Source: Oscillospiraceae bacterium (GTDB taxonomy: Bacteria > Bacillota > Clostridia > Oscillospirales > SIG519). Taken from it: DNA of 47,407 nucleotides. Below, one piece after another: positions 28,221 through 35,584 of the stretch (position 1 is its first letter; each line of letters begins with the position of its first letter). The stretch spans positions 1 to 47,407 of the forward strand of contig SVMS01000012.1 in NCBI GenBank assembly GCA_015067255.1, written 5' to 3'. The notes beneath the pieces are model-generated. The model made no database searches. It was not told the origin of the DNA and was given only the letters and a program-made list of their open reading frames with translations. A program made the position numbers and the translations under genes.

Positions 28221-28360
28221 TAAAAGGGAATGTAAAAAAAGCGCAGAGCGCATAAAACAAGTAAATAAAGAAACATAATACCATAATATTATGAAAAAAA
28301 CAAAAATAATAGAAAAACATCTTTTAGATAATTCTTTCAATAAATATACGTTTTATGCTA

Positions 28361-28441
28361 TCTGCCAATTTCGCCCTCGGAGTACCTCTGTACGCCGTCG
28401 GGTAACCGCCGACAAGGCTTTGTCGGCGCGAAATTGACAGA
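28361..28441. repeat. 81-bp GC-rich element with closing inverted repeat and two inner hairpins
   Basis: TCTGCCAATTTCGC (28361-28374) and GCGAAATTGACAGA (28428-28441) are inverted repeats with 13 of 14 matches. Between them lie CGG-A-GTAC/GTAC-G-CCG (28378-28397) and a perfect CGCCGACAA/TTGTCGGCG hairpin (28407-28415 with 28420-28428). The GC content is clearly above the surrounding DNA. It sits in the gap between valS and spoVAE; the layout suggests a small mobile or REP-like repeat unit. No copy elsewhere in the window. Confidence 0.65.
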
Positions 28442-28466
28442 TTCTGCACATTTTTTCCTATTCCCT

Positions 28467-28506
28467 AAAAAATGAGGCTGTAGATTTTTTTACAGCCTCA
28501 TTTTTT
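28467..28506. terminator. Bidirectional terminator between valS and spoVAE
   Basis: AATGAGGCTGTA pairs with TACAGCCTCATT, flanked by A on the left and T on the right, so it can act for both converging transcripts. It overlaps the spoVAE stop codon. Confidence 0.85.
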
Positions 28507-28854
28507 TGACTTTGATTTAAAAATTATTGCCGCAAGAAGACTGAAAAATACAGCTGCCGAAATGCCTGCCGCTGTTCCTGTGATGCCGCCTGTTAAAATT
28601 CCTATTGGACCGTGCTCCTCTATTGCCTTTTGTACACCTTTAGCTAAAGAATATCCAAAGCCCAACAGCGGTACAGTAGCGCCTGCTCCTCCGAAATCAA
28701 CCACATATTCATAAATTCCTAATCCTGTAAGAATAACGCCTGCAACAACATATCCTGTTAAAATTTTTGCGGGCGTCAGCTTAGTTTTATCTATTAAAAT
28801 CTGACCTATTACACATATAATTGCACCGGTAATAAATGTCTGCAAATATTGCAT
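28498..28854 (-). CDS. spoVAE: Stage V sporulation protein AE (SpoVAEb type)
   Basis: Small inner-spore-membrane protein of 118 residues with several hydrophobic helices, part of the channel that moves dipicolinic acid into and out of the spore core. The family pattern is clear: ICVIGQILIDKTKLTPA near the start, GAGATVPLLGFGYSLAKG in the middle, and EEHGPIGILTGGITGTAAGISAAV near the end. The usual partners spoVAC and spoVAD are not next to it; the gene stands alone between valS and a glycosidase gene. Confidence 0.9.
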   Translation of the reverse strand: MQYLQTFITGAIICVIGQILIDKTKLTPAKILTGYVVAGVILTGLGIYEYVVDFGGAGATVPLLGFGYSLAKGVQKAIEEHGPIGILTGGITGTAAGISAAVFFSLLAAIIFKSKSKK

Positions 28855-28940
28855 TGTGCTATTCCTCTCAATTATTAGTTATTTTACTATATTATTTGAA
28901 TTTAAAAAGATAATATACAATAAAATATAGGAGATACTTT

Positions 28941-29151
28941 ATAATGGTTATAGTTAGTCGAAACAGTAATAAAAATTACTGTTTAAATACTAAATCTTTG
29001 ATTTAGAAACAAATTTTCAAAGAAAATTTGACCATAACCATTGAAATAAGTGTCGTGTACAATTAAATTTCTTAAAAATTTAATTGTACAAAGCCGATAA
29101 AATCGGCTTATTGAAACGCTTTTTGGCGTTTCAATAAACTACAATCATTAT
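28941..29151. repeat. 211-bp element of six consecutive perfect hairpins closed by inverted repeats
   Basis: The 400-base gap before the glycosidase gene holds six perfect stems in a row: 10 bp at 28961-28984, 7 bp at 28990-29006, 9 bp at 29010-29030, 15 bp at 29056-29090, 8 bp at 29091-29109 and 10 bp at 29110-29135. Loops are 3-6 bases. The outer ends ATAATGGTTATAGTT (28941-28955) and AACTACAATCATTAT (29137-29151) are inverted repeats with 13 of 15 matches. The left arm can instead pair with 29031-29042 (11 of 12), closing the first three hairpins into a cloverleaf. No reading frame fits the element. It may be a structured RNA or a hairpin-type mobile repeat. Confidence 0.8.
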
Positions 29152-29164
29152 TATGCGTAAACTC

Positions 29165-29253: not shown

Positions 29254-30249
29254 ATGAATATAGATTTTATTAAAAAATATTTTTTCACAATTGTAATAAC
29301 TGTTGCTGTTGGTCTTTCAAGCGGACTTTTTCTTTTATACGGTCCTTATAAAGGCTTCCGTACAACGCTTGTAACAACTGCTATGGCAACAATGCGCCAT
29401 CAATGGCTTGCTACCACATTTTATGATGATGATGCAATTCAAAAGGTGCTTAATGAAAATAAAATTGATGACTCAGGTAAAATTTCTGATAATTCTCTTA
29501 TTGAAATTGATACCAACAAAATTGACGATGAGAGACTTTTACCCGAAGATAAAAATCAGCCCTATAAAATTATGGACATAAGCGGCAATAATTACAGAGG
29601 TCATGTTCTTGTAATTTACAACCCCAATAAAATAGATATGGGTGTTACTGACCGTTACGGTGTCTGGGGCGAATGGGTTTCTTCAGGCTCAAAGGAGGAC
29701 GGCGGTTTAGTTGCCGTAAATGCTGCAGGCTTCCCCGATGCAGGCGGTGTCGGCAAGGGAGAGCGTGCTACCGGTATGCTTATTGTTGACGGAGAAATTT
29801 TTGATATTCAAAATCCCGAGGCTACTATTCATCAGATGATCGGTTTTGACAAAGACGGTATTTTAACACTTTTCAGAGGCACTGTAGACGAAATTATGGA
29901 TAAAAACTACAGAGATGCCATTGAATTTGAGCCTTATCTTATTGTTAACGGTGAGCCTACAAAGATGTACGGTGACGGCGGTAAAGGTATAGGACCTGTT
30001 ACTTTAATCGGTCAACGTCAGGAAGGCACTGTTCTTTTTGTAGTTATTGACGGACGTCAGCCCGGTCACAGTATAGGTATTACTATGAAAAAAGCGCAGG
30101 AAATTATGCTTGACTATGGCTGTTTCAATGCTGCCCGTCTTGACGGCGGCTCTTCCTCTATTCTTGTAGAAAACGGAATTACCTTGAACAAGCCTTCAAG
30201 CACAGGCGGTGAACGTTGGGTTCCTACTTGGTTCCAGCTTATGCCTTAA
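29254..30249 (+). CDS. Phosphodiester glycosidase (NAGPA-domain) family protein
   Basis: A 331-residue protein with one N-terminal membrane helix (about 8-30), so the bulk lies outside the cell. The NAGPA-like domain (about 110-331) shows VAVNAAGFPDAGGVG, the VIDGRQPGHSIGITMKKAQE segment and the catalytic-region ARLDGGSSSILV. Family members remove GlcNAc-phosphodiester caps or act in exopolysaccharide metabolism; the substrate here is unknown. ATG 29254 follows AGAAGGA. It is followed by smpB 24 bases downstream. Confidence 0.85.
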   Translation: MNIDFIKKYFFTIVITVAVGLSSGLFLLYGPYKGFRTTLVTTAMATMRHQWLATTFYDDDAIQKVLNENKIDDSGKISDNSLIEIDTNKIDDERLLPEDKNQPYKIMDISGNNYRGHVLVIYNPNKIDMGVTDRYGVWGEWVSSGSKEDGGLVAVNAAGFPDAGGVGKGERATGMLIVDGEIFDIQNPEATIHQMIGFDKDGILTLFRGTVDEIMDKNYRDAIEFEPYLIVNGEPTKMYGDGGKGIGPVTLIGQRQEGTVLFVVIDGRQPGHSIGITMKKAQEIMLDYGCFNAARLDGGSSSILVENGITLNKPSSTGGERWVPTWFQLMP

Positions 30250-34035: not shown

Positions 34036-35394
34036 TTACTTCTTCTTGTTTCTCGCTGCTGAAGCGACTATTCCCGAAAGGGCAAGCAAAGCAATAACGT
34101 TTGGTATTACCATTAGCTGATTAAACATATCCGAAAGCTCCCAAGCCAACTTATTGGAAACGCAAGAGCCTAAGAAAATGAATATTACTGCAAGAACTAA
34201 ATATACGTAAGTAGCTTTTTTACCAAACAGATATTCAACATTTATTTTTCCAAATAAGTTCCAGCCTAATATAGTGGAAAAAGCAAAGAACAAGAGACAT
34301 ATTGCAACAAATGAATTTCCAAAGGTATTTCCGAAAACGCTTGAAAATGCCAATTGAGCCATATTTGTTTTTTCTACTCCCGCTGCTGCTCCGCCGGATA
34401 AAATACCGTTGCCTGCATAAAGAGTTGAAACAATTACAATTCCCGTTGCTGTCAAAACAACAAAGGTGTCAATGAATACGCCTATCATAGCCATTGTTCC
34501 TTGATTGTGAGGCGTTTCAACATTTGCCAAAGCGTGTGCGTGAGGAGTTGAGCCCATACCCGCTTCATTGGAGAAGAGACCTCTTTTTACACCCTGACTT
34601 ATTGCTTCCTTAAGGGCAAGACCAATACTGCCGCCCAAAATAGCGTTAGGCACAAAGGCATATTTGAATATAATACCTATTGTTTCGGGAATATATTTTA
34701 CACGTACTGCAAGAACTACGATACTTCCCAAAATATAAAGAATTGCCATAACAGGTACAAGCTTTTCCGTTACCTTTGCTATTCTGCTTACACCGCCTAT
34801 GAAAATAAAGCCTGAAATAGCCGCAATTATTATTCCAACAATCCAAGAGGGTACTCCAAAAGCTGTTTCACAGGTTGAACCGATAGAGTTAGACTGTACC
34901 ATACAGCCTATAAATCCTAAAGCAATAATACAAGCTACCGCAAAAAATCCTGCGAGGAATTTTCCGAATTTATTATTAAATGCACGCATTATGTAATAAA
35001 CGGGTCCGCCTTTTATTGAGCCGTCTTCCCCTTTTATTCTTGTTTCCTGTGCTAAAACCGCTTCGGCATATATTGTAGCCATTCCGAAGAAAGAAATTAT
35101 CCACATCCAAAAAATCGCACCGGGACCACCGATAAGAATAGCTCCGCAGGCACCTACTATATTTCCTGTACCTACCTGTGCCGCTATAGCCGTTGTCAAT
35201 GCCTGAAACGAGCTCATAGAATGTTTACTTTTTTCAGACTTGTTTCTTTTGAAGATATTTCTTATTCCCTCTCCAAAGCAACGCACCTGAACAAATCTTG
35301 TTTTAATTGTAAAAAACAAGCCTGTTCCGATTAAGAGTACAACAAGAATAATATCGGAAAGATACTTGTTGATTTCCTGTACAATTGCTAACAT
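34036..35394 (-). CDS. Sodium:alanine/glycine symporter (AGCS family)
   Basis: A multi-helix membrane protein of 452 residues, with the family motif GTGNIVGACGAILIGGPGA near residue 77 and NEAGMGSTPHAHA in the second half. AGCS proteins take up alanine or glycine with sodium. The start at 35394 follows AAGGAGA. The glycine riboswitch directly upstream suggests glycine handling by this transporter. Confidence 0.93.
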   Translation of the reverse strand: MLAIVQEINKYLSDIILVVLLIGTGLFFTIKTRFVQVRCFGEGIRNIFKRNKSEKSKHSMSSFQALTTAIAAQVGTGNIVGACGAILIGGPGAIFWMWIISFFGMATIYAEAVLAQETRIKGEDGSIKGGPVYYIMRAFNNKFGKFLAGFFAVACIIALGFIGCMVQSNSIGSTCETAFGVPSWIVGIIIAAISGFIFIGGVSRIAKVTEKLVPVMAILYILGSIVVLAVRVKYIPETIGIIFKYAFVPNAILGGSIGLALKEAISQGVKRGLFSNEAGMGSTPHAHALANVETPHNQGTMAMIGVFIDTFVVLTATGIVIVSTLYAGNGILSGGAAAGVEKTNMAQLAFSSVFGNTFGNSFVAICLLFFAFSTILGWNLFGKINVEYLFGKKATYVYLVLAVIFIFLGSCVSNKLAWELSDMFNQLMVIPNVIALLALSGIVASAARNKKK

Positions 35395-35434: not shown

Positions 35435-35474
35435 GAAAAAAAGACAGTTATATATTTTACATCTCTGTCTTTTT
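35435..35474 (-). terminator. Intrinsic terminator controlled by the glycine aptamer
   Basis: Read on the minus strand, AAAAAGACAG pairs with CTGTCTTTTTTTC after a loop of about 17 bases. Its 5' arm uses part of the aptamer's closing strand, so aptamer closure and terminator formation exclude each other. Confidence 0.8.
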
Positions 35475-35540
35475 GCCTGAGAGATTCAGCTTTTAAGCCT
35501 TGCACCTTCGGCATTCGAAAAATCGAAATTCTCCAGAGTT
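35463..35540 (-). ncRNA. Glycine riboswitch aptamer (single)
   Basis: On the minus strand the conserved glycine-aptamer segments are present in order: CTCTGGAGA, CCGAAGGTGCAA (35500-35511) and TCTCTCAGGCAAAA (35473-35486), followed by GACAGAG. P1 pairs CTCTG (35534-35538) with CAGAG (35463-35467). Only one aptamer is complete; upstream lies a perfect AGCTTTCAG/CTGAAAGCT hairpin (35547-35570) in place of a second. Overlap of P1 with the terminator arm predicts an ON switch: glycine binding allows read-through into the symporter gene. Confidence 0.88.
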
Positions 35541-35584
35541 TTCTCAGCTTTCAGTTTTACCTGAAAGCTTCATCGAAAGTAATA

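Follow-up and report, generated by a model that had tools for sequence, protein, structure and literature searches.

A repeat at positions 28941-29151 of the window, i.e. the whole stretch of 47,407 nucleotides analysed here, is very probably a mobile element with a selected fold. It is built from two related cloverleaves of three hairpins each, placed in inverted orientation, and no copy seen carries a gene. It joins the few bacterial mobile repeats in which DNA shape appears to be what is selected. Regarding its spread, the best explanation is a small non-autonomous element moved in trans as folded single-stranded DNA; both the mechanism and the enzyme are inferred, and the chances of this reading being correct in full are judged to fall slightly short of even.

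Position and architecture of the element

Comparison of copies defines the element as an inserted block at 28942-29150 (TAATGG...CATTA) together with a nearly invariant flanking A and T. A preliminary description, made from the letters of the window alone, had placed it at 28941-29151, and these ends prove almost exact. The six perfect stems it listed are all present (10, 7, 9, 15, 7-8 and 12 bp, between 28961 and 29137), its outer 15-nt arms do pair at 13/15 positions, and the second partner it assigned to the left arm at 29031-29042 was recovered with 11/12 matches. The element is intergenic; its neighbours are a spoVA-type gene on the minus strand (28498-28854) and, on the plus strand, a gene with a phosphodiester-glycosidase domain (29254-30249). 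Its features, with the evidence for each in brackets, are the following.

28941-29151, plus strand: whole element (copy alignment, flanks of 84 copies, empty sites, match of 161 bits to covariance model R1)
28939-28941, plus strand: left target flank TTA (family consensus WTTA^TAAW)
28942-29044, plus strand: left half (half B), the first cloverleaf, a closing stem around three hairpins (covariation in 59 copies, DNA fold of the window copy)
28942-28953, plus strand: 5' strand of the left closing stem, doubling as left terminal inverted repeat and pairing with 29032-29043 (compensatory changes in 8/11 pairs)
28961-28984, plus strand: hairpin 1, 10-bp stem; the family stem is GTCGAAAC/GTTTCGAC, and its outer CGA pairing is lost in the window copy (stem search, fold, copy alignment)
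28990-29006, plus strand: hairpin 2, 7-bp stem and triloop, core AAATC-loop-GATTT (copy alignment, folds of diverged members)
29010-29030, plus strand: hairpin 3, 9-bp stem (stem search, covariation)
29032-29043, plus strand: 3' strand of the left closing stem (stem search, covariation)
29045-29150, plus strand: right half (half A), the second cloverleaf, in inverted orientation (half-versus-half alignment; R1 matching here on the opposite strand too)
29045-29055, plus strand: 5' strand of the right closing stem, pairing with 29139-29149 with one conserved mismatch (covariation, R1 match)
29056-29090, plus strand: hairpin 4, 15-bp stem (stem search; 11/12 modelled pairs covary)
29091-29109, plus strand: hairpin 5, 7-8-bp stem (stem search, covariation)
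29108-29137, plus strand: hairpin 6, 12-bp stem, overlapping hairpin 5 by its two outermost bases (stem search, covariation)
29136-29150, plus strand: right terminal inverted repeat, doubling as 3' strand of the right closing stem (stem search, copy alignment, covariation)
29151-29153, plus strand: right target flank TTA, where the family consensus has TAA (flank comparison of copies)

Within the repeat family, no internal piece is better conserved than the core of hairpin 2. When reverse-complemented, the left half is 51-60% identical to the right half in the four copies aligned. The covariance model R1 derives from an alignment of 59 full-length copies, most of them belonging to Clostridia of the rumen and hindgut. 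It matches both strands at one place, and the two related palindromic units are inverted with respect to each other, as in the layout of REPINs.

Two further features of the window were recorded. A GC-rich palindromic stretch, CGCCGACAAGGCTTTGTCGGCG, lies in AT-rich surroundings at 28360-28450, just 3' of the valyl-tRNA synthetase gene, and is possibly another repeat. A glycine riboswitch aptamer (Rfam RF00504, 64.6 bits) is located at 35455-35546 on the minus strand, upstream of the minus-strand ORF 34036-35394.

Fold and covariation

Folded as RNA, the 221-nt stretch reaches -72 kcal/mol, compared with -28.9 +/- 3.7 in dinucleotide-matched shuffles (z -11.8); folded as DNA, the element scores z -13.5 against shuffles, and 0 of 200 shuffles were as stable. 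In the alignment of 59 copies, 95.2% of the cells are paired; shuffles give 88.9%, and sliding lowers the value to 35-47%. Compensatory double changes affect 45 of the 77 base pairs and amount to 244 cells, where shuffles give 58.7. The preliminary description had offered selection for structure as one of two readings, and conceded that stems not maintained by compensatory changes would refute it; the strong covariation sustains this reading.

It had also proposed two alternative folds, a cloverleaf of three hairpins and a closed six-hairpin form held by the outer arms, and covariation favours the former. The left closing stem, whose arms are ~80 nt apart, accumulates 63 double-change cells against 16.3 in shuffles, whereas the outer-arm pairing has 5 against 2.3, so the conserved fold is that of two separate cloverleaves; the pairing of the outer arms reflects the relatedness of the two halves. 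Diverged members (from genomes G163, G314 and G502) give the same layout on RNA folding, with low identity outside the ends. The repeat family conserves the fold, not the letters.

Perfect stems can also arise by mutation, with template switching copying one arm onto the other, in which case structure would not be selected and the repeat would have spread for unrelated reasons. Quasi-palindrome correction is an established process, and template switching would yield double changes without strand bias. Against this, the stems agree in number, order and approximate size across different families and in another order, the closing stem covaries in spite of the distance between its arms, and mobility is left unexplained. 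This origin of the stems is therefore given only a slight chance.

A different question is which molecule folds. Wobble mismatches at paired positions comprise 74 G.U and 78 A.C cells, without bias in either half. If a single RNA strand were selected, G.U should exceed A.C at pairs, and the nearly equal counts favour folded DNA rather than one RNA strand. The count omits the constant U-G at columns 1-104, and the strand-symmetry test treats related sequences as independent and is limited by shared ancestry. A structured RNA kept for its RNA fold, be it a mobile cis-regulatory or a non-coding one (terminator, mRNA stabiliser, small RNA), would agree with the very stable fold, the strong covariation and the intergenic position, and the TATAATG box rebuilt at each junction could serve as its -10. 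The absence of a G.U surplus in both halves is nonetheless what is expected if DNA, or either strand, folds. Moreover, copies occur in both orientations, with 4/48 in convergent gaps when 14% of the intergenic length is convergent; a terminator role is unsupported for want of an excess there. No match to Rfam, tRNA or tmRNA was obtained, in agreement with the earlier failure to recognise any RNA family, and we consider a structured RNA quite unlikely. The case is also a caution for screens of non-coding RNA in metagenomes: strongly covarying structures can be mobile DNA.

Copies, target site and recent movement

The source genome of the window (1.84 Mb in 54 contigs, 97.6% complete, hereafter own genome) yielded, in a similarity search, ten more matches (148-213 bp, 74-89% identity) along with several shorter ones, while R1 identified 13 full-length copies, the window copy included, as well as shorter derivatives. 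On a broader scale, the exact pattern of the terminal 22 nt occurs in 112 stretches from genomes of GTDB species, which with few exceptions are metagenome-assembled genomes (MAGs) of rumen or hindgut Clostridia; viral contigs gave no exact match to the end pattern. R1 was positive in 10/295 genomes sampled from the order of the own genome, belonging to eight families with its own counted, and outside the order in one genome of a class-wide sample of 341. Single carriers have 3-43 matches, counting both strands. Absence of copies and lack of conservation in relatives, either of which had been named beforehand as grounds for giving up the initial interpretation, can both be dismissed. Matches in Anaerolineales (L148) and Minthosoma (L125) are single ends within apparent coding sequence and were taken as chance.

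Measured from TAATG to CATTA, the full-length copies of most carriers are tightly grouped at 198-199 bp, with length variants of 206-209 bp in the own genome, 186-188 bp in G163 and G502 and 236-250 bp in G218. Deletion derivatives retain both ends, either as forms of 51-63 bp with one hairpin or as forms of 104-133 bp with partial loss of the interior; one-hairpin and half forms number in the tens in total. Head-to-tail dimers and one-and-a-half copies with the exact joint CATTA|TAATG were found at L016, L153, L309 (12395-12682), L306 and L246, and such dimers are expected if the ends of the element rebuild its target site.

A distinct subfamily, with ends TAATGACTATGTGGATGTCGAAAT / TAATGATTATCGAATGTCGAGAA and longer hairpins, is co-resident with the main one (L016 1292-1503, L131 2-215, L011). 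A second, unrelated dispersed hairpin repeat of the GGAAAACC...GGTTTTCC type has many matches in G218 and was noticed in the flanks of L291 and L293.

The element ends in TAATG...CATTA and its insertion target is WTTA^TAAW. Six copies in G218 are 98.4-98.8% identical and have unrelated flanks. Identity of about 98% at different sites of one genome indicates recent movement and, together with the 13 full-length copies of the own genome, endorses the earlier proposal of a hairpin-type mobile repeat that spread recently. The sister genome G286 has two alignable empty sites reading TTATAA where G218 has the filled TTA[TAATG...CATTA]TAA; in one of them the alignment runs through the junction free of gaps, and in the other it is less secure, being gapped close by. 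Another empty site, from comparing L174 with L195, is compatible, and at L156 an insertion lies within the loop of an older copy. Two sites had hinted at a preference for hairpin loops as insertion points, which a survey of 84 copies did not support (p = 0.39).

In the flanks of those 84 copies, A is found at -1 in 83 and T at +1 in 83, followed by T at -2 (72) and -3 (68) and A at +2 (60) and +3 (58). TA is present at both junctions in 54/84 copies and is variable even among recent ones. The flanking duplications that the preliminary description had suggested looking for did not materialise: any duplication of the target is limited to 2 bp, and the data allow a 2-bp AT duplication, which is indistinguishable from none. 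What speaks against duplication of TA is that recent copies differ at -2 and +2 but not at -1 and +1.

These junctions bear on whether the repeat could be a MITE. A DDE transposase, Tc1/mariner-IS630-like or other, would then have moved it with duplication of 2 bp (TA or AT), the parent insertion sequence would have been lost or lie in strains not sampled, and the internal hairpins would be a by-product or help to prevent transcription into the element. Terminal inverted repeats, short length, deletion derivatives with both ends, an AT-rich target with conserved A^T and a possible 2-bp duplication all accord with such an origin. The pattern of variable -2/+2 and constant -1/+1 is, however, unlike a decaying TA duplication, and conserved ends would suffice for a MITE, yet the internal helices covary strongly. 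Furthermore, the IS630 DDE_3 domain (PF13358) was detected in 0/38 genomes, most of them carriers, and no larger element with TAATG...CATTA ends, able to bracket a transposase gene, was present among the end matches listed for 12 genomes. We regard a MITE of this kind as improbable without ruling it out. One pair of ends 1.49 kb apart around an ATPase-like gene in the own genome (L013) appears to consist of two adjacent remnants rather than a single element.

In most copies, insertion at TTA^TAA recreates TATAATG at either end, forming -10-like boxes that point inward. In the window such boxes are at 28940-28946 and, on the opposite strand, at 29146-29152, the right one being AATAATG here, with one base changed.

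Inferred mechanism, candidate enzymes and known systems

Movement in trans through a folded single strand is the most likely and most economical reading, inferred as it is with no enzyme tied to the element; the symmetry of both the halves and the target site was counted for it. When one strand is exposed, e.g. on the lagging-strand template, each half would fold into a cloverleaf, and an enzyme acting in trans would read the terminal stem and the first hairpin. It would then cut 3' of ATTA at both ends, the cut ends would be joined as CATTA-TAATG, and the excised piece would be inserted 3' of ATTA elsewhere. The enzyme may belong to the Y1 HUH type or be one that acts alike but is not yet recognised, with movement resembling that of IS200/IS605 and REPINs. 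The abundance of the family, with its recent copies, empty sites, minimal forms with one hairpin and strong covariation, makes the question of an enzyme that reads folded DNA directly testable.

Y1 domains were found in 24/38 genomes, and no Y1 gene had the element within 1.5 kb in the loci checked. The ends of the three IS200-type transposases of the own genome are unlike those of the element where examined, and none of the loci and genomes examined has a tnpA-bearing copy sharing the element's ends. A 52-bp copy (L154) had seemed connected with a copy of IS200, but the stretch they have in common is a separate IS200 fragment. IS110 transposases are rare, scoring above cut-off in 2/22 genomes, which tells against an IS110 bridge-RNA element. 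No transposase gene recurrently adjoins the copies; the largest cluster is read-through of the element itself. Since most of the genomes are MAGs, absent enzymes may be assembly gaps.

Among known systems, IS200/IS605 and its palindrome-associated derivatives share with the element terminal hairpins, the lack of a clear target duplication and insertion after an AT-rich tetranucleotide, here ATTA, the WTTA^TAAW target and the empty sites being in agreement without excluding a 2-bp duplication; they differ in that no copy of the element has tnpA, the resident IS200-type ends are unrelated, and there are six hairpins instead of one per end. IS630/Tc1-mariner-type MITEs, of which RUP is an example, are likewise short, with terminal inverted repeats (13/15 in the window copy), an AT-rich target and TA at the junctions, whereas for the element no parent transposase was found, TA duplication is not clear and the internal structure is conserved. 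The double-hairpin elements of mitochondria are also mobile repeats defined by perfect hairpins, in which the sequence changes and the shape stays. They are organellar and have two hairpins, and to our knowledge no terminal repeats like those of the element have been described for them. Nothing relevant to twin-cloverleaf MITEs was found in the open-access literature. It is possible, though on the unlikely side, that the element represents a new class: a twin DNA cloverleaf, conserved in shape across orders of Clostridia and moved as folded single-stranded DNA by an enzyme not recognised as a transposase.

REPINs, in which two REP hairpins stand in inverted orientation and are moved by a REP-associated tyrosine transposase (RAYT), have been proposed to move in trans via a folded single strand (PMC3116915), and TnpA-REP recognises REPs as folded single strands (PMC8266576). 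The element resembles them as a short, non-autonomous intergenic repeat of two related inverted units with compensatory changes, and folding as single-stranded DNA and movement in trans are presumed for it as well. Its unit is instead a three-hairpin cloverleaf and not one hairpin, its length is ~200 bp compared with ~70-100 for a REPIN, and it has neither a consistent GTAG tag nor a linked RAYT. Could the copies be REPINs proper, moved by RAYTs? The inverted doublet with compensatory changes is as in REPINs (PMC3116915), and RAYT-type proteins exist in about half of the genomes searched. They are, however, equally frequent in relatives without the element and never adjoin it in the loci checked, the GTAG tag is limited to 2/59 left and 39/59 right halves, and no RAYT was found in the own genome, for all its completeness, or in G163, despite many copies. 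REP-type transposases (NF047646) were not found in these two genomes, nor in G102-G104 and G106. Such an identity is very unlikely, and co-occurrence of RAYTs with the element was rejected as inconsistent, being missing in several carriers and present in non-carriers.

The element was accordingly filed as a 'non-autonomous structured mobile repeat', a member of neither the REPIN nor the MITE family, because a consistent GTAG tag and a linked RAYT are missing on one side, and a parent transposase and a clear duplication on the other. Some of the Y1 proteins are RAYT-like, with sub-threshold scores against the NCBIfam REP transposase model. Diverse proteins of this sort, just under the NCBIfam cut-off, were noted at L219-L229 and L236, and some carriers have several per genome.
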